Positions 40,091 through 63,100 of a stretch of DNA of 64,000 nt are shown piece after piece. Each line of letters starts with the position of its first letter. The stretch's first letter is position 1. The DNA is from Struthio camelus (taxonomy: Eukaryota; Chordata; Aves; Struthioniformes; Struthionidae). The stretch covers positions 3,426,001 to 3,490,000 of the forward strand of contig NC_090952.1 in the NCBI RefSeq assembly GCF_040807025.1, written 5' to 3'. A program made the position numbers and the translations under genes. The notes beneath the pieces were generated by a model. That model saw only the letters and a list, made by a program, of their open reading frames with translations. It had not been told where the DNA came from and did not search any database.

Positions 40091-43011
40091 TCACAGGGTG
40101 GAGGCCAGCTGGGAACTATCTGACAGATTCTCCAGGTTGTCCACTGTAGTGATGATGGCTTCTATTTTTCCTTCTGGAAGCACATGAGAGGCATTGGATC
40201 GAAATTTCTTCAGGAGCGATTCTCTGCTCAGAGGCTTCCTCCAGTGCCCATAGAAAGTGTCACATTTGCCCGTCAGGACATCCCCACTGTGGAGGAGCAG
40301 TGCTACCTCTCCATACATTTTGTCAAAGTTGGCTACGTTATCTTCAGGGTGCTCTACCACCACTTTGTCCAACAGCTCCCTCAGTTCCTGCCGGTGGATG
40401 CTGTTTTCCGTGAAGGAGCTAAGGCCCACTTCACCATCCAGCAAAGCAGTACAAGCATTGAACTGGAAGGAGTGTCTGGCCTGGTGTTCAGAGCTTGGGA
40501 AAGGCCTATTAATGTACTTTGATACTGGGATCTTCAGCACAATGGTGCGGATCAAAGAAGGAGAGAAGGACCCTGCATAGTTGATGAACAGGTTCCGGAC
40601 AGACAAGGCAGCGTCAACCACCCAGTGCATCCCCAAGTGGGCTGGGAATCGCTTGAAAGCAATATCCTGCTTCTCCAAGAGGAATTCATGATGGTCACTT
40701 GGTACAGAAAGTGGTTTGGGTTGATAGACACTGTAGAAAGCACCAAATCCAGAGCAACCAGGGATATCATCCAGAATGAAAGGGTTAGCCTCCATCCCTC
40801 GGGCAGCCAGCAGTGCTGCTTCAAAGCCCAGGCGAGCAGCATTTCCCATATGCAGTGGCTTGGCTTGCGTGGCAGCATTTGCCATAGGTGCCCCTGCAAG
40901 CGAAGCAGCGATGCCCAAGGCGTGTGTGCACTGGGCTATATTCAGAGACAGCAGTTTTGCTGTGGCAGCTGCACTGCCCATGGTACCAACCACAGAAGGA
41001 GGATGGAACCTAAAGGGGAAATTGTAGGTATGAGCACCCCTACCTGCTTGGCAGAACATAGCACAGGGAGTACCAAAGCACCTCACCTAACACACCTTCC
41101 CATTGGACTGGAAATGAACTGCCAAGCCAGCTAGTGAAAAATCCACCATGGGTCCATTGCAGATAGGATTCATCCGACTCAAAATTTAGCCACCTAAAAA
41201 CTAAGCATCTGCTTAAAACCTCTGAGTCAACAGGGTGAAATCAGATCTCCAGAAAGAAATTTTTAATTTTTCCTGAGAGCAGGTGGCATGGCACAGCTTG
41301 TGTCCATATAGCTAACCTTTCCCCCTCCCAGACAAAAAAGGTGGACTCATCCTGCCTGTATAATGGTCATAGTCCATGCTACGGACCATGCTATGGTCCA
41401 TGCTATCCCTTAGACCATGCCAGAGCACTGCCTGGTGAGTAGTAGTTGGTGCAGGCAGAAATTGTGCCAACAATTAGAAGTGCCTACAATTAAACTGTCT
41501 GCGTGGTTGTGGTCACTGTCTGATCTGTGCCTTTGCTCAGGTTAGTTTAGATGAATACACTGCAGTCTCCAGTGTTAGTCCTCCTGATGCTTATTTTTGA
41601 AGCAAGAGGAGGATGTCTTCAAGATGAAAATGAGATAAGTGGTGCCTCATCAGCTGACGGCAGAACTGGCCTTTGGCTCTCAGCAGGGCTTTCCCCTGAT
41701 TCTGAGTTCAGCTGGGCTTAGGCTGTCATTTTAAAATCCTGAGGAGGCCTGTTAACAGACTTACCAACCCTCTCCCATTCTTGCTCTTTTTAGACATGAT
41801 GAACCTTCAGTAAAATATGATTGGCTTCTAATTTTGTGTAATCTGAGACCTGCACAGTTGCCTAAAGGGCTTGGTTCAGTGGCCATGAGCCTGCAGAGCT
41901 ATGTGAGTTACCAACAGGGGATATATTGCATTCTTATGCTTGTTTTTCTTATGAAAATTGCTGCATCATGCTCTAGCCCTGCTTACTCAGGCCCACTTGG
42001 TGAAGAAAAGGGGATTTACCTTTTGGGAATGTCGTGAGCCTCACTGGAGAAATGCATGAGCCGTCCTTGCACTTCTAGACCCACATTAAAGGCCAGCAGG
42101 AAATCCAGGCCATTGGGTTTGGTGCTTGGAGGTAGCATCTGGGAAGCTGCCAGAAGAGCTGGCAGAACAGCTCCTGAGGGGTGAGTAGCAGGATGCCAGG
42201 TATCATCAAAGTCCATGGAGTGAGTCTGCCAGGGAAATGGAGATAAGGACATGCTAGTGCAAGGTCAGTAACAACATCCACCCACCCATCCGGTGGCACT
42301 CATGTTACTGCTCTAAAAGGACTATGTGCAACATTGCACAGCAGCCCATGGCTTTTGGTCACCATTACCCTCCCAGGCCCCTGACTGCTTCCTGTAACAT
42401 TAACCTTTGTCTTGAAAGGACCACAGAGCTCCTTCTGGAAGAGCCTGCCTTACCGCAACTCCATTGGTGAATGCAGCCAGCGTTGGGGAGAGCTTTATGC
42501 CTGGCTTCCCATAGACAGAGCTCACGGCAGCTGAAGAATACAGTTCCTGCCAAAGAGAGGGAAATCCAAGTGAGGACCTTCAGGGAAGTAGCAATTGTGT
42601 GAAGCCAGAAAGCCCCCTCGTGCAAGGCAAAAGTCCTACTTCAGCCACAAAATAAGGCTTTGTTTGTGGTGATGGTGTCAGAAAGGGGACCACATAAATG
42701 CACGCTATTATGAGGGTTGTACCTACCCGGCAGTACTGCAGAGCAATACTGAACACGTGCGTCGTGCTGCCTACAAGGCCAACCCCAATGCTGTCGAGGA
42801 TCATCCTCTTGCTTCTGTGACAGACTGTCTCGGACAAATGCTCAGGTCGAACTGCCTGAATGAAGGAGGCAAAGCTGCTGGTCACGGTCTCTTCCGGAGC
42901 TCTCCTGGCCACCACTGCAGCACCAAGGGAGAGGGGAGGGGTGAGACTTGTGTGGGCCATGTGCACATTCCTGGAGAGGGAGATTGCCATCTTGTCTGAC
43001 TGAGGTGCCAT
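40091..43011 (-). CDS. ACOD1: ACOD1/IRG1-type cis-aconitate decarboxylase
   Basis: The enzyme decarboxylates cis-aconitate to itaconate and CO2. In mammals it is mitochondrial and induced in activated macrophages. Coding exons in transcript order are 43011-42727, 42546-42454, 42225-42020 and 41009-40091. All have GT/AG junctions and phases that fit, giving about 500 residues (human 481). It belongs to the MmgE/PrpD fold. The blocks HSMDFDDTWHPATHPSG, HPPSVVGT, AGAPMANAATQAKPLH, KRFPAHL, INRPFPSSEH and DTFYGHWRKPLS are seen. Equivalents of the human active-site residues D93, T97, H103, H159, K207 and Y318 are D131, T135, H141, H197, K245 and Y360, all present. The N terminus is uncertain: the ATG at 43011 gives about 38 residues more than the human start, and an upstream first exon is possible. 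The C terminus is shorter than in human. The neighbours differ from those of human ACOD1, so it may be a paralog. Confidence 0.93.
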
Positions 43012-50626: not shown

Positions 50627-53600
50627 ATGGTGAGCACAGCGGGCTTTGCAGCCGTATTTTACAGCGAGCCATCGGTGCTGGGGCTCCTCGCTAACGTCGT
50701 GAGTGCCTTCCTCCTCTGCCTGCAGAACTTTGCCACAGCTCACACCGGCATCAGGCCCACAGGAGCAGAGGACATCCTCGCAGGTGGGTGAGGGTGAGGC
50801 ACCACCTTCCGTGGAAGGCATCTTGGCTGTTGGTTGGAGGTTCTAGATGAACTCTTCCTTGAGAGCACTAGTCAGGATAAAGTCCTTACGGAGTCATCTC
50901 TGTGGGCCAGTACGCAGAAGTGGTGGGACAGGGGAAGAAATGTGAACATTTTTCAATGTACGGAAGCTATGTGTGATGCCTAGGACAGCTGCTCCTCCTT
51001 CTCTAGCAACTCTGCCATGAATCTGATTCAAATCCCTCATGTGCTTTTCCCCTTCCACTTACTTTCATAGATCTAAACCAGATTGGAGCTCTGGCAGATT
51101 CGCTTGCTATACTGAGCAAACCAAGGGCTCATCTGCCCTGCACCAAGGCTCAGCATAGAAATTTGTCATAAAGGTAGGAAGAGAGGGGAAGACAGAGGGC
51201 ATAGAGCCAGTCACAAGAAGGCTGTAGGTCCTGCAGTGGGATGTCCCCCAGCATTTGGAGACACAGCACTGCTTCCTGCAACTCAGGCCTCTCTGTGGCT
51301 TGCTTCCCTCACGGCACTGTATTCCTGTGTCTCTCAGGTGTCCACCTCGTCTTGATCGGAGGCTTTGTCCAGCTCCTGGCAGGATTCCTTGCCTTCCGGA
51401 AGTATGATCACCTTGGAGGCACAGCCTTTCTGACCTTTTCTGCTCTATGGAGTAGCTATGGAGCTACACGCATCATTTCAGCTGCATATTCCCCCTGGCA
51501 GAACTTAACTCTGGCCTCAGAGAATGCCAGTCACCTCCTACCTGCTGCCCTGGCCCACCCCTCTGCCAGTCAAAGTGCTGTGGCTGGGCTGGTGGCCTAC
51601 ATTTCCATTTCCTTTATCCTCTCCTTCTGCTCAGCCACGGTGAACTACATCATGCCTTTCATATTTGGGGCCATCGCGCTTGCCCTGGTGTTTGAAGCAG
51701 TTGCACTGTTTGGCCAGTGGGCTCTGGTAGTGTCAGGTGTTATTGAGCTTGTCATTGTCATATGTGGGTTGTACGGGGCAGTGGCTCTCCTGCTCAAGGG
51801 TGTCACTCAGCGGTACATCCTTCCAGGCTTTGGGCATCCACTCTTCAATGTCCTGCTACTGGGATCAGCACAGAAGAGTTCTTCCAAGGCCATTGGGGAA
51901 GAGAAGAAAAAGAATACAAAGTATGCTGAACCAATGGCTCTAGGCAATATCTGTGATACCGTCTCTCCATTTATATTTACTTTCTACTTCTTTGGGTACA
52001 TGAAGACCTTCTGTGTTGGAGCAGCATGGATATCCATCATCTCCAGCTGTCAGTTGCTGTCCAGTTTCTATGGCTATCTGAGAGATGATGCCTATTACAC
52101 TACCAAGTTTGGCGTCCACAGCCTGTACTGGCTGGTGATGTCTTGGGAAGAGTTTATACTAACCACCTTCATTGGGCCAGAGAAGACTCAGGAAAGTAGG
52201 CTGGGAATGTTTGGAGGCTGGTTCTTCCTGGCCGTTGCCTGCCTACTGTTTTTGATGTCCTTCCACAAAGATACCCTGGAGATGCTGCAAAATGCCTCTT
52301 TCATTGTCCTCACCATTGCCACCATCCATCAGATCCCAACCCCAAGTGCTTACCTGTTCCTTGGGGCCGCCTGCAGCCTTTGCACTGCCCTTTCAATGTA
52401 TGCCACTTTTGCCAGCCTTATCAACTCCATCGGGGAGAAGGTTTTGATACCAGTTGGTGTCCAGGCTATGTCCAGCTCAACTCTTCAAACCACACTCATG
52501 GCTGCCAAAACCTGCTTCACAGGCTCCAAGAGCTTCCAAAGCAGCACCAGTGTTGAAGTGCCAGATGCCCTATTTTACATCTATAATGGCCTAGCTGCAG
52601 TCTCTGCCATCCAGGGTACTGTGAATGATCCAACCAGACAGCAACTCTCTATACCCTCCGTGCTCATCCCAGGAGCTATAATGCAGCTGTATGTGTGCAG
52701 GATCCAGATTCAACGAGGGAGAAGGTTTGGTTGCATTCTTCCATTCAGTTATGCTGCCTTTTGGGGAGCATGGACCTGGCTTCGATTTGCGGGTAATGCA
52801 AGAGTGTACTTAACTGTTTCACTTATTCAAAACAAATGGATGTTATTAGGGAATTTCAGACTGCTTTCTCCAACAGAATTCATTCTCCCTGGAGATGCAG
52901 TGATATTGGGTTTATCAACATTTCTCTTTGTAAAAAGATGCAAAAAGTGATAAAGACCAAACATCATGGTTTGTGCTCATGTAATGGAGTGCCATTGGTG
53001 CAGTCACTTGGTTATCTGACAGCTACAGGAGTCTAGCCTGTCTCTCTGTGACACAGTCTTGTGACTTGTAACTCTAATGGAAGTCGAGATTTCACTCCTA
53101 AACTGTTGTGAAACAGCACTCGGACTGTCTCAGGGTGGTTATTTCAGAATGATAGCTTAGGAGACACTTCCCAGGTGGCAGAAGTCTCCAAGTGCTGTAT
53201 TTATGCTTCAGAAGCTTGTTGCTATTGTCCTAGTTGGCTGTAGCCATGAAAGGAGATCTCAGAATGGTGATGGTGGGCAGTAAGATGCTTTATTTAGTTC
53301 CAAGTTAGCAGCATGCCCGTGTTACCTCCATGCTAATTCCGATTAGAATCTGTACCTTCTGGGAAAGTTAGAGCTGTTAGCTAAGAGGTATGGCAGAAAG
53401 CTATTAGCTTTTCAACCAAGCCCTGAAAGATACCCTGATGTCTATTACAAGCTGAAGGCAAAATCAAATGACATACTCGGCTTTTTTGGATAGTCATCAT
53501 AGATCCTTCAGCATATACCTCATGTATTTTGCACTGCAGATATGTTTCATTGCAATGGATTTCTTTGTAGTGGTTACCATCAATTAATTTGAACTGCAGT

Positions 53601-55232
53601 CTTTCCAACTGCAGATATGTCATTCTTTTATTACACTGCACCTAATGATCTACTGGTTCTATTTCAGGCCACTTGATGAACATTGGGGCAGGGAACAGTG
53701 AAGGATTCACTGCTGGTTCTGTTGCCTTTTTGATACTCAATACCTTTTTAATTATTCTAGGTGAGTCTCAGTACCATATGTAATTGATTATTGAGGGGCA
53801 TTTGGGGCCATATCCTTAATCTAATTGGCAGCCACTCTGTAGTGGAGACACACAAGCTCACAATGAGAGTCACAGCTTTTTCTCTGTCCCTCCAGTTAGG
53901 CCAGAATTGAAGTGTTTTGCCCTCAGCCAATAACAGAAGCTGAGCAGGGCTTAGAAGAAACAGTCATAAGGGAGTGGAAGAACATTTCAAAGAAAATAAA
54001 AGGTTCAAATAAGGTGAAAGTGTTAGATGGATTGGGCCACTGGCATATATCCACAGCTATTCTCCAGCTCAGCTGCTGTAAATCAGAAAGTTCTTGGCTG
54101 CTCTAGAAGTGTTTTCCATGTGAGCACAGCATGCTGGCAGATTAAGGGTTTGGCAGCTTTTCTCTTGAAAGCTGAGGGGTAACTAAACAGCAGCCATACC
54201 TATGTGCCCCCCCCTCCATGAACAGGGAAGTCGGATCATATACTGCTCAGTTTAATCAAGTTAGATTAATTTGATTTCGGAACTCCTGTTTCACAAACAT
54301 TTTAACCACATATACCCCATTCTCTGATGTCAATCCCTTTTGTTTCTATTTCTTTCCACAGCCGCTTCTTTTAGCGTGGTTCTTCTCTGCATGACCCTTG
54401 CAATGGAGCTCTTGATCATTTGTTTTCTGCTCTTTACGATGGACAACCTCCCTTGGCCATTTGAAAGTGAGTTGTAGGTGAACTTGGTCCTCCAACCTTC
54501 ACTCAGGGTGCAGTGAATGGGTCCCTGGCTGAGGAACAATGTTCTGCACAAGCTCAGTACAAAAAAAAAAAAAGCACAATAGTGTGTCTTCTGTTCCTAG
54601 AAGACTGTGTGCAAGCTACAGATGCTGAGCATTTTCAGCTACATAAATGGATAAGGAAACTTTCCCTCATATCATCCCCAGCTCCTTGAGCTTCCTAATA
54701 CACTATAGGTATGGCTGATATTTATGGATCAAGAGAACTTCCTGAGGTTCTGTGTGGTCTTGCTTTTTATTAGTCATTCAGAGACCACAATTTGTGGTGA
54801 ACCAGGATTTGGGGTGAACTAGACGTGCCACTGGTGTAAACATCTGTCGTTCTGTTATAGTCATGACTTGACAGCAATTGAGAATTTGCTTTGTTATTAT
54901 ATAGCGTGCTCTAACAAGAGGCTTTGTAGAAGCTGTTGCACCAGAATAACATAGTAAAACATGCACCAATGCCTTGAACTTTCAGTCCCACAAACATGCT
55001 TAATGTCAAGTTTTGCATAAGAGGAAAGACTGAAGTGAGTCTGTAATGCTGGGAAGTCATAAGATACAACGAAAACAAATCTTGTTATCACTCTTCTTTT
55101 GCCCCTTTGGGGTTTTTTCCAGTTGTGATGCTAAGCACCTTCAGCATCATCTGTTTCTATGGAGCAACAGCATCACTTGCAAACAACATGTTTGGGAAGG
55201 ATCTTATAATGATGGGACCCCCTTTGTTCATG
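50627..55232 (+). other. AceTr array, exons 1-5 (three tandem membrane domains)
   Basis: Domain 1 opens with EPSVLGLLAN, a worn form of the family NPAPLGL signature. It is followed by LIGGFVQLLAGFLAFRK and HLGGTAFLTFSALW, matching the family pattern GG..Q...G..EF..G..FGGTAF.SYG.FW. Domain 2 starts EPMALGN and keeps the Q (SSCQLLSSFYGYL) and the W-rich third span. Domain 3 starts VPDALFYIYNGL and keeps IPGAIMQLY and FGCILPFSYAAFWGAW. N-glycosylation sequons N108 and N115 lie in the loop after span 3 of domain 1, suggesting that side is extracellular or luminal. One 1455-base exon carries most of domain 1, all of domain 2 and the start of domain 3. Bacterial SatP is a hexamer of single units, so this chain would be half a pseudo-hexamer. 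Confidence 0.8.
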
Positions 55233-58200
55233 GTAAGAGATTCCTTTCATGATGGTGTAGATTTGCTGTTTAGGGGGGGAAATCCTAGGATCTCCAGCCT
55301 CGCCTAGGGGAGTTCAAAGTTCCATTGAATTTCCCCTCTTTTGACTCCCTTAGTGCTATTTGAAATCCAGACCATCCCATTGCTATAGGGAGCTATGAGC
55401 TGAAAACAAGCTCCTTTCCATTATAAATAAGGTGTCTGGAAACTTGGAGAAAGAACAAGGACATTTACAAAATTCCTACCTCACTCTAAAATGCAAATCA
55501 CCATGGTCCTGTGAAATTAGCTGTCTCCCATCCATGAACTACTGACAGGCTGAAGTATTAAAGGTCATAATCCTGGGGACAGGAGAAAAAGGGAGTCAAA
55601 AGTTTCCCAAACTTGACAGCAATAGCTCCCCACTATATTGGTTAACGTTAAACGTTTTTCTACAGTTTTGTATGTCTGACGAAGGCAGTTTCTCCTAACT
55701 AGGTCGATTGATCTGACAGCTCCGACTCTTCCTACAGAGAAATATTTTTATTAAATCAGAGCTTCTAAACCCTGGGACTCATGAGAAAGCATTTGAAACT
55801 TGGTCTTACCCCAAGTACCTCTGGATTTAGGATTTTCTAACTGTTTGTCTAGGTCATTTTGGAGGATAGTTATTTCGCCAGGAAGGAGTCTCTGTGCTGG
55901 GATTCATCTCCTGTAATTTTAGACATCAGCAGTTCAAATGTCTGAATCTGAGCTAGTTTCTTTGACTCTTACTGGGACAGAAATAAGCACTTCTGTAGTG
56001 TAATTAATTTGATCTACTTTAGATGCAATGTACCTAGAAGGGCTGCTTCTGCCTTTTGCCTGGCACAATGAGATACCTGCATTTGGGCAGACTAAATCCT
56101 GGCCTGTGTTTCATATGTTTGCTTATTCCAACTGCATTCCAAGTAATGGATATGTTTCCTCCTGATTACTACTAGGCTGAGAGCTCTAAGAAGGACCCTG
56201 AAGATCCTCCACCCTGCCTCTGCCCCAAGTCCCACTGTACGAGTGGCTTGAGGATGATTGCTGACTTGCTGAATACAGGGGCAGTGTGTGGGGTCCCGAC
56301 AGATACTGTGTATGCTTTGGCAGCCTCCTGCAAACACCCTCAAGCCATCGAGAAGGTCTACAGAATCAAGGTGTGGATACAAGGCTGAAGTATTGTTAGC
56401 TGGATCGATCTTATGTTCTATAGATGAGCTACTTACACAGGTAGCAGTGAGATTCGCTTGTTTTGAGTCTTCCAAAGACTCAGAATTTGACTGTGGGTAA
56501 AATTTATGAGCAGTCACAACAAAATGTCATGGACCATTTTCTGATCTGAGCTGCCTGGGGATAAAGCACTCGCTGCTCTTGGTGTGTGACGTTGGAATCA
56601 AACCAACTTCTTCCTCACTGTTGGGGGCAAACCACACTGGAATAGCCCTGCCATTTGTGCAAAATGGATACAAACCTATATTTTTGTCTGTCTTAAGAAG
56701 TGCTGAATTAGAATCCCAGGTCTAAACTTCCCCAGACTTTTGGAGACGTTCACTGTTGGAATCAGACCCAAATTTTGCACCTTAAATACATCTTTTTCAG
56801 CCTGGCCCTGTCTGTTCTCCATGAGGCAATTTCCTGGCTAGCCTAGAGAAATAAGCATAACAGACTATCTCAGCTGGCACTTAGTGTGAACATCAGTAAC
56901 AAAGGCAGTCTTTTCTTTCCTGCCTTGGTGCCAGTGCTAACCTTCCCTGTGGATGAGATAATATAAACAGAATGTAAATACATGCCCAGTTCTTTAGTCA
57001 CCTGGCTCTGCTGAAACTGATGTCACTCAAGAACTGAAATGACACCACTTTGTGAGCTCTTTTTATTTTTCCTCCATGCCACTGTTAATTTCATTGCAAG
57101 GGTATTTCAAAGCATCAAGGAGCTGAAGAAGTGGTCATGTAGATATTTGTTTCAGGGCAGCTAAACTCTCCATCCATTATTCTACTGTTAATTAGTGAAG
57201 TTACCCGTGATTTATACCAGAATAAGTTAGAAGAACATCAGACCCCTGGACACAAGATGCTAAAAGTACTGATAATGAGCAGAGCATCATCTTCCCTCAT
57301 TCCACTGTGTCTAAAGCAGGAGATTTAGATGCTTCCTACCAACATCCCAAGAGCAGACTAATGCTCCCTCCTTTCTTCAATTTGCACACGCAGAACTGAG
57401 GTGTGGCACAAATCACAGCATGCAGTTCTCCCTTTGCTCAGTATTTTGTGCAGAGATAGCATCCCGCTTGCTTGCAGCTCATGGCCCCTGGGAAGTATAT
57501 GCAATGGCTTAGATCTTCTGAACACACAGATTTTCTCCTTACCTATTTTTCTTCTTCCCCTCTTCCTGATTTGTGCAGGACAGGCCTCAAGAAAAGCCCA
57601 TCTGCATCTTTATTTCAAACCTGGAGCAGCTGCGAGCAGCTGCTCCCCCCATCAGCCCGCTGCTCTGGGATTTCATGGAAAATGTTTACCCTGGTGGGAT
57701 CGGCTGCATTATCAAGAAAGGAGAGTGGCTGAAGAAGTTAGGTGGGATGAATAAGACAGCCCTTCCTCTCATCTTGGCCCTCTTTTGGGTTTTCAGCACA
57801 GCAGCTCTGTGCAATCCACACATGCTTTTGGATGTCAATAGGGAGAGTTTTGGTTCACTTTATTCTGAGAAAACGCATTTCAAACTATTACCTGTCTTGG
57901 TAAAATGTTTAGCAGAGGGTATTAATGAGCTGGAACAGCTCATTAGCAGTGTGAGCCAGCATGATAACCTTATTAACCCAGTCAGACTCAAAGCAAGGGA
58001 GGCTCATCAGCTTGGGAGGGTCACCTCTTAGAAGTCCACAGCTGCTAGCTAGTAATGAACAACTCCTGAGTGGAGGGTCAAAGAAACACGAGAGCCCAGG
58101 AAGGGAGGGAGTTCCTGTGGGCACTCCCTCTTCACTTCTTCCTTCCTATCCACATGAACAAAGACAAAGCAGTGCAAGCAGCAGTATGATTCACTCTCAA

Positions 58201-59748
58201 GCCTGGCTTCTGGATATCAATGGATATATTAAAGGCTAAAAACCAGTAGGAGTTATGCATACTTAACTGGTAGAGATATGTAGTGGAGGGTGGAGAGGGC
58301 GGGAAACAGTCACAAGGAGTTAGACTCTGTGATCTAGGAGGATCCTGTGTCCTACAGTTCCATGAAATCTGCCATGTTGATCTCCAGTCACTAAGGTTTT
58401 GATCGTTTCCCTTCTACTTCTTCCAGTCCAGTTAGTCCTGAAATTTTAGGGCTGCTTTCGTGCCTTTCTGATCTAGGGTGCTGCTTATGTGAAAGTGTAC
58501 CGAGAGAATTGTAATTCTGTTTGGGGATATGGCGCAGAGTCACTTGCAAGCTTTAGTCTCTCATCTGCCAACACCCTCTGCCTATCTGTCAAGGGGTTGG
58601 AGCAGGCTACAACAGAGTGGGAACTCAAGACAGTATTATGATCAGAGTGCCTGACCTAACTGTCCTGGTGCACCTCATTGACATGACGGGACCCTTGGCA
58701 ATCACATCTGCTAATCCTAGTGGAGAGGTTGACAGCACACACCATGACATGGTCATCTCGTAAGTACCCTGTTCACTAACCAGAGCTGACATTTATATCA
58801 CAGCTCCAAAACAGCTGTGATTTGGGTGGCCAGAAAGTTTAAGTGGTAGATCATGAGCTGATGGCCTATACTGGGGGGGGGATCTGGCTCAATGGAATAT
58901 GAAGTGCTGTGCAGTTTTGTTCCTTCTTTTCCCTACAGGCGTCTTGGCCATAAACTGGAGGGTGTTCTCTGCGATGGAGAGTCTGATGAGGTGGTGGCAT
59001 CAACTGTGGTCAACTGCACAAAGATTGATGAAAGTGAGTTTGAGAACCACCCTTTCTATGTGAGCAACAGGATTTTCCTGGAATGTTTCCATTCCTTTCA
59101 CTAATATCAATCTGGCACTGTAATGTGCTCCAAGAGTAACATTTCCTGAGTGCCTGGACATTCGCAAACACGTTGATGGAGAGGAACAAACAAAAGATGT
59201 CCTTGGAGTACCTCTGTGTTGACAGAGAGTGAGGCAGTAAGGAGAAACAGGGTAGTGTGTGCAAAATCAACCTTATAAGAGCAAAAATGTTTCAAGTGTG
59301 GGGGTGGATGCTTCTGAAAGGTAGGGAGTATATTCCTTGTAGACTAAGGATAGAGTTATAGGAGTTTATCTGCAATAATGTAACATCACAAGCTGAGATC
59401 TTTTTGGCTGGATTAGGGTTGTCATTTGAGTGGGATCCTCTAGCAGAGGACTAAACTGTTGAACAAAGTGCTGGGTCAGCAGACATTTTGCTTTCTGACA
59501 AAGCTTCTGGTCAACTTGCTACGGAACTTTACAGTTTGGAGGCCTGGAACATTTGATAGCTTTACCAGTCCAAAATGTTTCTTTATGTCTTCTTCCTTTT
59601 TTTTTTCCCTCCGGGCTGTGATGCGGGGATTATCCTGACTTTCTTGTTCTTGCTCTGGGAAGGTGGCATTTCCATTGTGAGAGAAGGCTGCGTACCAGCA
59701 GGCAAGGTGATGCAGATATTTGAGAGGGTGAAGAATGGAACAGTCTGA
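50627..59748 (+). CDS. Triple AceTr (SatP/YaaH-like) transporter fused to a YrdC domain
   Basis: Ten exons form one 2625-base frame (874 residues): 50627-50783, 51338-52792, 53668-53760, 54362-54466, 55123-55232, 56176-56370, 57579-57741, 58594-58759, 58939-59033 and 59663-59748 (TGA). Every junction is GT/AG and every phase fits. Residues 1-640 hold three successive GPR1/FUN34/YaaH-like membrane units (about 14-230, 250-430 and 457-640), which would give around 18 membrane spans. Residues 641-874 are a YrdC/Sua5 fold after a Pro-, Cys- and acid-rich linker. AceTr proteins move acetate, succinate or similar acids, and YrdC makes threonylcarbamoyl-AMP. The function of the fusion is unknown. 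The start is the first ATG in frame with the family block. The YrdC part could instead be a separate gene, but the frame crosses the 55232/56176 junction in phase and I see no clear 3' end or new start there. Confidence 0.85.
56176..59748 (+). other. YrdC/Sua5 (TsaC-like) domain, exons 6-10
   Basis: YrdC enzymes make threonylcarbamoyl-AMP from threonine, bicarbonate and ATP for tRNA t6A synthesis. Motifs seen are VPTDTVYAL (residues 680-688), K705/R707/K711 in IKDRPQEKP (the KxR motif), VPD (778-780) and S798/N800 in TSANPSG (the SxN motif). A typical closing segment follows (IVREGC). The usual WPGPLT-type segment reads YPGGIGC here, so that conserved Pro is gone. The domain is about as long as human YRDC without its leader. 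ATP- and threonine-site motifs are mostly kept, so it may still bind or catalyse, but the altered segment leaves activity open. Confidence 0.85.
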
Positions 59749-60130: not shown

Positions 60131-60136
60131 AATAAA
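60131..60136 (+). terminator. Polyadenylation signal of the AceTr-YrdC gene
   Basis: An AATAAA occurs about 380 bases after the TGA stop at 59748 and is the first consensus signal downstream. Confidence 0.6.
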
Positions 60137-60149
60137 AACTTTTTGGAAC

Positions 60150-63100
60150 ACAAGGACTTTGAATCTCACTTGGTCTCCACTGAGATACTATTTCTCTTTT
60201 CTTAGAGGAAGGAATAAACATTGGAAAACACAATTCAGACAGAAGGCTTATAGCACATAATTCACCCCCTTTCCTTCTGTGAGATTTTACCAATCGTTCC
60301 CTGCTTGGCCCACATGAGTACCCAGCTGGTTTCAGGGCATGCAGCCTGAGAAGCCTCCTCATAGCACAGAGAGGCTAATGTAGGTCCGTGGCCAAACTGT
60401 GAGCAACACTGCCAGGTAGCCCAAGGCTGTGACTCTCTTGAGAGCTCCAGGTAACAAAGACCCACAGCACGCAGTGTGGAGGAGATGGAGCCAGGAGCAG
60501 AAGACTGCAATTTCCTTTGCCCTAAAGCAAACAACAATCATGGAAGAGTCAGAGAGTGAGGAAGTTCACTCACAGAAAAGACAAACCCCAAATAAGGAAA
60601 CAATGAGTTAGAGCCCAAGGTCTGGTTTAAAAACACTGAGATGTGCAATACAGATTTGGAGTTTGTCTGCACTGTTTTTTCTCCTGTTGCAGAGACAGTG
60701 TCCAAGTGGCAGTTCCCTGCCAGTTCCCTTCAGTCACTCCTTCTCCTCCCTCCTGCTCCATTCAGGGATCCCTGCGCCGCTTTCTCAGCACGGCCACAAT
60801 ACCACCTCCTACCGATCCCAAGAGACAAGCCCCTTATCAGCTTTTCTTTTTATTATCTTCTTGAAGCTTCTTTCTCTCCTGCTCATGGACGTCTCCCTAG
60901 ACTCACATTCCCCTTGCCTGTCTGGTCAGGAGTTCCCTCCTTCCTGATTCCTCCAGCACTGCTCTGGGCTCTGAGCAGCCAAAGCCGGGAGCTTTTTGGG
61001 ATGAATTCCTCCCTCGTTTCATTATTGACATGTAAACAGCAACTCCAGCTTTGTCTGTACTCAGCTTGCTTTGGCGTTGGGTTGTTGTCTATCTGATCCT
61101 CCTTGAGCTGCAGGCTGCCGTTTATAGTTTGCACTCAGAAGTCACCATAAACAGAAGCTTTTACTTTGGCTCCAGGTGACAGAGATTGTTTCATTCAAGC
61201 AATTCTCCAAAGTCCTTATTAAAAATCCTTAGCCTCTGTTTCTCTGGTCTGAGCACAGACTTCCCTTGACCCTGTAGCCTGAGGCCTTTTGACCCCGTAA
61301 ACGCACCTGTGTCCTTTGCTCCCAGGCTGAGGGCTGTCACTGTGCCTCATTACACGCAAGCACGGTAGGATATTCCCAGCCTCCTGTGGTTTTTCAGCTC
61401 GCCTCAGCTTCTGTAAGAGGAATTAATTCGTACTCTCCTCCCTGCAAATGCCCTAAGACAATTTAGCAAGCCTCCACACGCATCGTGTGCTTCCCTTTCA
61501 CACAAGCATGCATTCTGCCTTGGTGAGCTGTCTATCAGGGCAGCACCTATACGACCAGTGTATGTGGCTGGAGCCCCTCTTTCTCACTGGAGATTAAAAT
61601 CTGCTCCTTCCTCTTTGTGCAAGTGGACGGTACATCTCTCGTAATCTCAGCAAACTGCTGTCCCTCCTCCCCTGTGCTGACTGAGCTGTGCTGGCTGGGC
61701 AAGGCAAGGGTGCGAGCAGAACAAACATCTGCTCATTCCTTGCTTGCCTCTTCTGGCAGGGACATAACTACCTTGGTATGTCCTGCTCTGTGGATCTGCA
61801 CGTCTTTTCCAACTCCAGAGGCTCCCCAGGGCCCTCACAAGATAAAAAGAGAGCCAGGAGGGCTTTGGCCTGCTGCTCTTACACTCAACCTCAAGTAATA
61901 AGGTTCTCTGTGCCATCGCTTCTCCCCAACGCACAGAGTCCTCTCTCATTTTCAGACCAAGCTTCCTCCGTCTCTTCATATGCTGAATCACAGCCCCTTG
62001 TTCTTTCCAGGACTGTGTGCCCTTCCCAAAACAGATCAGACTAATCAACTGTGCCTGGCTAAAGGGAATGCAGACCCTGGCAATGTCAGCAGCACCACAT
62101 TGCCAGGGCAAGAGAGGCAGGGAAGGACCAACTGGGAGGGGAGAAGAAACCACAGGAGGTTTGACAAGCTCAGCTAACTGTGAGGAGTTCTGGGGAAGCT
62201 GTGACATCATCTCCCTCTCTGGCCTATACCCGGAAAAGGACACAACAAATTCATCAGTAAATCAGTGCAATAAAACCATACTGCCTTATTGGAACGGAGT
62301 TCTCCGTGGTTCTTGTGCTCCCAGTATGCATCAGCTGCTCTCCTTACTGCAACATGAGGTTTGCAAAAGTTGCTGTTATTCAGTTTAAATGTACAGATAA
62401 ATATATTAGACAAATAGGAAGCCTAGGCCACTAACAATTGGTCGTTAGTGTAGTGCCAGGAGTTGTTAAATTTCTGCAAGTCCCGGTGCTATAAAGCATG
62501 TATTGAATAAATGTGTTTAAGTGCCAGTTGTGGGCCACCGTCGTCCAGCAGAGGCTTAACTTGAAGCGTGTGGTAAAGTCCCACAACATGGGATTCCTCT
62601 CCTCTTTTAATACGTGAAAAACAGCTTGACCTCTACAAGCAAAAGAGGTTTTTGTTATTGGTCATAAGTTGATGGAACAAAAAGAGCAAAGGATCTCTTT
62701 CTTGGCCTTTCACCTCTGTGATGTGGGTCCATGTGAGACCATTATCCATGCCAGTGGCACAGATGCTGAGACAGCATCTGTGGCATTTCAGTTTGAGAGA
62801 ATGATGCAGAGTTCCCCTTCTGACATGAACAGTGCACACACCAAACTGCACAGAATCTCGTAAATTAAGCCAAGCTCAGCAGGAGATTTTGCCCTGTACA
62901 GCAGCTGGAAAGGTTACCTGTCTGGCCCATGGCTTTCGGGGATGCTCCACAGTGAGAATTTTTTTGGTAAGAGTAGCAGCTATTGCCTTACACTGTTGCT
63001 ATCAAGCAGATAAATCAAGAATGGAATGTCTCAGCCCTTAAGGAAAACACTTGAGCACATTGGGATGATGGGAAAATTAGGGGTTAGACTAGAAACTGTT

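Follow-up and report, generated by a model that had tools for sequence, protein, structure and literature searches.

Gene structure at the locus

The window analysed here is a 64,000-nt stretch of Struthio camelus contig NC_090952.1 (positions 3,426,001 to 3,490,000), and two of its genes lie head-to-head, 7.6 kb apart: a predicted fusion gene on the forward strand, which joins AceTr-type membrane units to a YrdC domain, and an IRG1-like cis-aconitate decarboxylase gene (here called IRG1L-type) on the reverse strand. Their features are collected in Table 1.

The fusion gene, as rebuilt from the sequence, occupies 50627-59748 (+) and consists of ten exons that form one frame of 874 amino acids. 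All nine introns have GT-AG boundaries and matching phases, and the sole stop codon is the terminal one, which bears out the ten in-phase exons and 874-residue frame of the preliminary description. Exon 2 sits within an open frame of 581 amino acids. When the region is divided into 500-bp bins (n = 22), the CpG observed/expected ratio peaks in the bin of exon 1, at 0.42.

The IRG1L-type gene is intact and encodes 500 amino acids. Nine open frames of the window were compared with Pfam, and the two that matched both belong to this gene. The parts of PMC7347537 consulted name H103, H159, H277 and Y318 as residues of IRG1/ACOD1, and the neighbour is identical at all four aligned positions (His103, His159, His277 and Tyr318).

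Table 1. Positions, strand and content of the features discussed (window coordinates)
Feature	Positions	Strand	Content and basis
Fusion gene, exon 1	50627..50783	+	Start codon and aa 1-52, with the initial portion of AceTr unit 1; exon model
Fusion gene, exon 2	51338..52792	+	aa 53-537, covering the remainder of AceTr unit 1, unit 2 and the beginning of unit 3; exon model
Fusion gene, exon 3	53668..53760	+	AceTr unit 3; exon model
Fusion gene, exon 4	54362..54466	+	AceTr unit 3; exon model
Fusion gene, exon 5	55123..55232	+	End of AceTr unit 3; phase-0 donor toward the YrdC exons; exon model
Fusion gene, exon 6	56176..56370	+	Linker, then the beginning of YrdC; ends with the codon for the KxR Lys; exon model
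Fusion gene, exon 7	57579..57741	+	YrdC; starts at the Arg-bearing end of KxR (split as K/DR); exon model, alignment
Fusion gene, exon 8	58594..58759	+	YrdC with TSAN (SxN motif, preceding Thr as in TsaC)
Fusion gene, exon 9	58939..59033	+	YrdC; carries the Ser aligned to S181
Fusion gene, exon 10	59663..59748	+	End of YrdC; Arg aligned to R195; stop codon
AATAAA polyadenylation-type signal	60131..60136	+	3' of the fusion gene stop; a second at 60213
IRG1L-type exon 1	42727..43011	-	PF03972 in its frame
IRG1L-type exon 2	42454..42546	-	Gene model
IRG1L-type exon 3	42020..42225	-	Residue aligned to His103
IRG1L-type exon 4, to stop	40091..41009	-	PDB 7br9, E 6.1e-103

The AceTr units and the YrdC domain

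Searching the whole 874-aa protein against Pfam finds PF01184 (Gpr1_Fun34_YaaH) at aa 13-206 (34.4 bits, above the cut-off of 25) and PF01300 (Sua5_yciO_yrdC) at aa 671-855 (118.9 bits against a cut-off of 25.1), so that both families anticipated in the preliminary description are present above cut-off. The three AceTr domains that it also proposed fare unequally when searched singly. Unit 1 matches PF01184 at 38.2 bits and stands, while unit 3 (16.9 bits) falls below the cut-off of 25 and unit 2 alone has no Pfam match. With NCBIfam AceTr_1, unit 1 scores 25.5 and does not reach the equivalog cut-off of 50, which is stricter than that of Pfam, and unit 2 scores 12.5 bits (E 0.11). Single-sequence HHalign gives a probability of 56% for unit 1 against E. 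coli SatP and 95.8% for unit 3 against the last unit of the paralogue described below, and at most 5.5% for unit 2 in all six of its pairings. Units 1 and 2 are linked by a permissive blastp run without composition correction or masking (E 1.6e-5, 18.6% identity), which we count as weak, and no chain among the PDB sequences matched unit 1 at E up to 10.

Hydropathy analysis identifies 14 segments within aa 1-640, as against the 18 expected for three six-helix units. The NPAPLGL signature, which marks the start of TM1, is degenerate throughout, reading EPSVLGL in unit 1 (four of seven positions kept), EPMALGN in unit 2 (three of seven) and VPDALFY in unit 3 (two of seven); the accepted AceTr members CaAto7 and CaAto8 deviate from it at four and three of the seven positions, respectively. 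At the sequence level, then, unit 1 is clear, unit 3 is weak and unit 2 is near noise, and the tandem units most likely number three.

The YrdC domain scores 119 with NCBIfam TIGR00057, slightly below the cut-off of 123.2. It is 48% identical to the YrdC domain of the paralogue, with identities of 0.60, 0.71 and 0.35 at the three codon positions over 197 codons, and these values rule out chance as the source of the YrdC part. As the residue reference we used the chain of 6f87, which we take to be P. abyssi Sua5. The positions of this chain are offset by one relative to the numbering of PMC10321239, in which T33, K56, R58, S143, N145, S181 and R195 of P. abyssi Sua5 are the residues that bind ATP and threonine; in the alignment, the fused domain keeps all seven. 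The residue before SxN is Thr in the TsaC type and Pro in the Sua5 type (PMC10321239), and the fused domain reads TSAN where the aligned Sua5 chains read PSAN. At another site it has PGG where the aligned chains show PGP. The seven retained residues would fit the suggestion in the preliminary description that the domain senses or uses ATP, bicarbonate or an amino acid.

Related genes and a proposed function

A paralogue lies tail-to-tail with the fusion gene, about 13.6 kb downstream, and has its parts in the same order, AceTr-like and then YrdC. It was located through its YrdC exons (119.6 bits) followed by local tblastn, and its AceTr match (last unit, 28.3 bits) falls in an open exon of 613 amino acids. 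Six of the seven pocket residues are kept, and Gln replaces the Arg of KxR. Between the large exon and the first YrdC exon there is a strong-looking phase-1 donor, for which the phase-matching acceptors precede stops; weak phase-0 pairs remain. When the 640-aa AceTr part was searched against the whole genome, its five matches all fell in the window gene and the paralogue was missed. A genome search with the PF01184 family had a single match, the paralogue exon, and the window gene escaped it, so that further AceTr genes may exist. Exons of canonical YRDC are present on another contig, so basic t6A synthesis need not depend on the fusion.

We consider the ostrich protein to be a member of the ATO-Sua5 family, and with about evenly balanced confidence we read it as a carboxylate transporter coupled to a TsaC-type domain, acting likeliest in an inducible itaconate-type or acetate response. 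It would be one membrane protein, in which tandem AceTr (SatP/Ato) units precede a C-terminal TsaC-type domain. The AceTr part most likely moves a small carboxylate across the membrane, and the YrdC domain would make or sense an adenylate at the cytosolic mouth, a step that would couple transport to the energy or CO2 state. An itaconate-type or acetate setting outside mammals, and with it a functional tie to IRG1L, is suggested because the intact IRG1-like gene lies head-to-head with the fusion gene and because zebrafish irg1l appears in four RNA-seq papers alongside genes from a single clone, among which one bears a YrdC-domain-like label. Of the clone genes, which include si:ch211-153b23.3,.4 and.5, only.4 carries the YrdC label, and genes active in a common cell type can come to be listed jointly in bulk RNA-seq. 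A word search of the main text of PMC13316224, the paper on the family, finds no mention of Irg1 or itaconate.

A more ambitious version, which we offer as speculation, is that the fusion and IRG1L are parts of an ancient unit under common regulation in non-mammalian vertebrates. IRG1L would make itaconate or a related dicarboxylate together with CO2, the fusion would move the acid, and its YrdC domain would use or sense CO2/bicarbonate and ATP, with mammals having lost both genes together. If the link to IRG1L is true, non-mammalian vertebrates own a dedicated immunometabolite transporter-enzyme and mammals are without one. With the retained YrdC residues, the one lost in the paralogue and the divergent itaconate-type neighbour as starting points, the function can be put to the test in chicken or zebrafish.

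Two other readings accept the fusion and divide its labour differently. The AceTr part might no longer transport and might serve as a membrane anchor or scaffold, so that YrdC would be a membrane-tethered threonylcarbamoyl-AMP synthase working beside canonical YRDC. The complete pocket, the degenerate AceTr motif and the near-noise unit 2 speak for this, but the paralogue has retained its AceTr-like sequence and yet lost the Arg of KxR, which suggests that selection there maintains the membrane part, and the genome has canonical YRDC exons elsewhere; we think the anchor role unlikely. The same Arg loss points the other way for a YrdC domain that gates the AceTr pore as a regulatory sensor of ATP, bicarbonate or threonine, without catalysis, since it implies that catalysis may not be needed in all members. 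The binding residues are kept in the window gene, and the CO2 that IRG1 releases (PMC7347537, consulted in part) is a possible signal; however, the seven residues suit catalysis equally, and a purely sensory role also seems to us rather improbable.

The fusion itself might be questioned. Two adjacent genes, one with AceTr only (exons 1-5) and one with YrdC only (exons 6-10), could have been misjoined: intron 5 has two ATTAAA hexamers, the single in-frame ATG of exon 6, at 56254 (M667), comes shortly before the start of PF01300 at aa 671, and no exact AceTr-to-YrdC splice was pinned down in the paralogue. Against this, exon 6 begins with a splice acceptor immediately after an in-frame TAG codon and joins exon 5 in phase 0, no AATAAA was found in intron 5, no CpG rise was seen at exon 6 in the same 500-bp bins, the part order is identical in the paralogue, and almost all vertebrate sequences of the family paper carry the fusion (PMC13316224, consulted in part). 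A misjoin is thus quite improbable, although the hexamers and M667 leave room for separate products. Recent transfer from bacteria, or a chimera of the assembly, is more improbable still, to the point that we give it hardly any weight. Both domains do have bacterial homologues, but the gene is split into ten exons by GT-AG introns and has a comparable gene close by. Contigs of GTDB were also scanned with the alignment of the fused YrdC, by means of two peptide patterns; there were 61 pattern matches, and two relatives were confirmed, each 26% identical. The predicted fusion is backed by the exon model, by a second locus with the same part order and by a published family.

Comparison with known systems

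The preliminary description was aware of no described protein that couples a carboxylate transporter to a YrdC fold. This does not hold, as the architecture is already known and in print: Ghasemi et al. (2026, iScience, June 2026, PMC13316224, consulted in part) report ATO-Sua5/YciO/YrdC proteins from all major lineages of vertebrates apart from mammals. As described there, vertebrate ATO-Sua5 proteins are about 900 aa long, have AceTr/Ato in triplicate and a C-terminal Sua5/YciO/YrdC domain, and form two vertebrate clades. The window protein (874 aa, PF01184 and then a C-terminal PF01300) is likened to them by this described architecture. What is added here is the paralogue, the canonical YRDC elsewhere in the genome, the IRG1L-type neighbour and an analysis of the pocket residues, of which there is none in the consulted parts of that paper.

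With SatP/Ato proteins (AceTr, PF01184) the fusion shares an above-cut-off Pfam score, both for the whole protein and for unit 1, and it differs from them in its several units per chain, its degenerate signature motif and its fused enzyme domain. It resembles TsaC/Sua5/YRDC proteins (PF01300) in the whole-domain match, the seven retained residues and the Thr before SxN, but unlike them its YrdC domain is attached to a membrane protein, has PGG in place of PGP and scores below the TIGR00057 cut-off. HypF and TobZ likewise carry YrdC within a multidomain protein that has a role outside tRNA modification; according to the parts of PMC9654439 consulted, the partner of YrdC in these proteins is a Kae1-like carbamoyltransferase domain, and not a transporter as in the fusion.

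Gene model and a second locus

The preliminary description held that ten exons chain in phase into one 874-residue frame, and rebuilding the exons from sequence bears this out: each of the nine introns starts with GT and ends with AG, their phases are compatible, and the 874-residue product has a single, terminal stop. The start codon lies within the 500-bp bin of highest CpG observed/expected ratio (0.42, versus 0 to 0.29 in the other bins; 22 bins). Past the stop codon, AATAAA occurs at 60131 and again at 60213. On the question of one gene or two, the exon 6 acceptor lies directly 3' of an in-frame TAG, and the exon 6 frame is therefore unreachable from upstream without splicing. The exon 5/exon 6 join is phase 0; a scan of the intron 5 sequence found no AATAAA, and ATTAAA occurs there twice. 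A shorter, YrdC-only product is possible, since a single in-frame ATG (M667) lies shortly N-terminal to the Pfam YrdC domain. The single-gene reading gains independent support from a second AceTr-like and YrdC locus in the same genome.

This paralogue lies approximately 13.6 kb past the 3' end of the window gene, on the opposite strand. A genome search returned ten matches, of which five fell in the window gene, four in the paralogue's YrdC exons and one on contig C23. Directly upstream of the paralogue's YrdC exons (PF01300, 119.6 bits when joined) is a 613-aa open frame that matches PF01184 on its last unit (28.3 bits). The arrangement suggests a candidate second AceTr-YrdC fusion, in which a putative splice would join the 613-aa exon to the YrdC exons. 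Compared across the loci, the YrdC domains are 48% identical, and their identities at the three codon positions (0.60, 0.71 and 0.35; 197 codons) argue for selection at the protein level.

Two further features were seen by eye upstream in the paralogue's region: an exon near C11:3507400-3507540 resembling a portion of its unit 1, and centrin-like EF-hand open frames at about G000:C11:3518400-3522300 (-) (sub-loci L011 and L012).

Locations of the features discussed (G000, host genome; C, contigs; L, sub-loci)
Feature	Location	Strand	Description
Paralogue	G000:C11:3499385-3505644 (L010, outside window)	-	613-aa AceTr exon and YrdC exons, tail-to-tail
IRG1L-type cis-aconitate decarboxylase gene	window 43011-40091	-	four exons, GT-AG introns, 500 residues, intact
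Second IRG1 homologue	G000:C1:176951742-176952644 (L020)	-	56% identical to the window's
Canonical YRDC exons	G000:C23:11103000-11111000 (L013)		tblastn, translation by eye

Transporter units and the YrdC pocket

The window protein had been described as three SatP/YaaH-like units joined to a YrdC domain. Pfam confirms the first unit and the YrdC domain, both above curated cut-offs (PF01184, Gpr1_Fun34_YaaH, residues 13-206, 34.4 bits; PF01300, Sua5_yciO_yrdC, residues 671-855, 118.9 bits), but not the other two: searched alone, unit 1 scores 38.2 bits against PF01184, whereas unit 3 scores 16.9 (cut-off 25) and unit 2 has no Pfam match. NCBIfam AceTr_1 (cut-off 50) gives 25.5 bits for unit 1, 12.5 (E 0.11) for unit 2 and no match on unit 3. 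Single-sequence HHalign places E. coli SatP at 56% with unit 1, 14% with unit 3 and 55% with the paralogue's last unit; the third units of the two loci reach 95.8%, and unit 2 stays at or below 5.5% in all six pairings. Permissive blastp, unmasked and uncorrected for composition, relates unit 1 to unit 2 (E 1.6e-5, 18.6% identity) and to unit 3 (E 0.003), which for membrane proteins is weak evidence. By eye, most AceTr units in the HHalign alignment share a Leu/Ile-Pro-x-Gly-like C-terminal ending (ILPGFG, LIPVG and LIMMG in units 1-3; VLPIG in SatP), and a 19-residue hydropathy scan finds 14 hydrophobic segments in residues 1-640. Family members have three six-helix units by structural comparison, even where profile hits number fewer than three, according to the available text of PMC13316224. 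The window protein likely has three AceTr units as well, which its own sequence tests partly support.

The YrdC domain was aligned to the 6f87 chain, which we take to be P. abyssi Sua5. Its numbering runs one below that of PMC10321239, where the part available names K56xR58, S143xN145, T33, S181 and R195 as binding residues, backed by mutations in yeast Sua5. The window domain is identical at all seven, and the paralogue keeps six, the Arg of KxR being Gln. The window domain also has Thr immediately before SxN, a TsaC signature, and Lys at position 62, found in several TsaC variants (same source, PMC10321239); Phe replaces the Sua5-type His67, and the Sua5-type Pro59 is retained. Canonical YRDC exons with KxR and SAN are present on contig C23, so the first t6A step has a candidate other than the fusion.

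The IRG1L-type neighbour and a proposed function

The IRG1L-type gene is head-to-head with the fusion, the start codons facing away from each other 7616 bp apart. Against the PDB, its last exon hits cis-aconitate decarboxylase 7br9 (E 6.1e-103), and the gene is identical at the positions aligned to H103, H159, H277 and Y318 (Y319 in mouse), the IRG1 residues stressed in the accessible part of PMC7347537. Since the genome carries a second homologue on contig C1, at the identity shown in the table, the window copy is probably IRG1L and the C1 copy ACOD1 proper; a chicken gene called IRG1L appears in the portion seen of PMC11171086.

Most likely, the AceTr units would form a multi-unit carboxylate path within one chain, and the cytosolic TsaC-type domain would make or sense an adenylate built from ATP, bicarbonate and an amino acid. 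With IRG1L next to the fusion, the cargo may be itaconate or a related acid. SatP carries the annotation acetate/succinate symporter, and itaconate is methylene-succinate. Transport and catalysis by the fusion, and its functional tie to IRG1L, are likewise putative. A word search of the main text of the family paper (PMC13316224) found neither Irg1 nor itaconate.

Four zebrafish RNA-seq studies name irg1l together with genes of the clone si:ch211-153b23 (.3,.4 and.5);.4 is labelled YrdC-domain-like, and.3 and.5 are putative members of the fusion family. A nanoparticle study has one module with five hub genes, among them irg1l,.3 and.5; in a PFAS study, the top five upregulated genes at one PFOS dose include irg1l,.4 and.5; and irg1l and all three clone genes are in the affected-gene table of a 4-nonylphenol/triclosan/triclocarban study. 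Among the matches listed, irg1l is mostly mentioned without the clone genes, and is absent from the two papers listed with the clone name alone.

Comparison with the published family

The claim that no described protein couples a transporter to YrdC is contradicted by PMC13316224, the only paper found in a full-text literature search for FUN34 together with YrdC. The available text reports vertebrate ATOs of approximately 900 residues in which the Gpr1/Fun34/YaaH unit is triplicated; nearly all of them carry a Sua5/YciO/YrdC domain at the C terminus. The AceTr-YrdC architecture is thus already known and not new. The same text places vertebrate ATOs in all major vertebrate lineages but mammals and divides them into two clades, to which the window gene and its paralogue would correspond.
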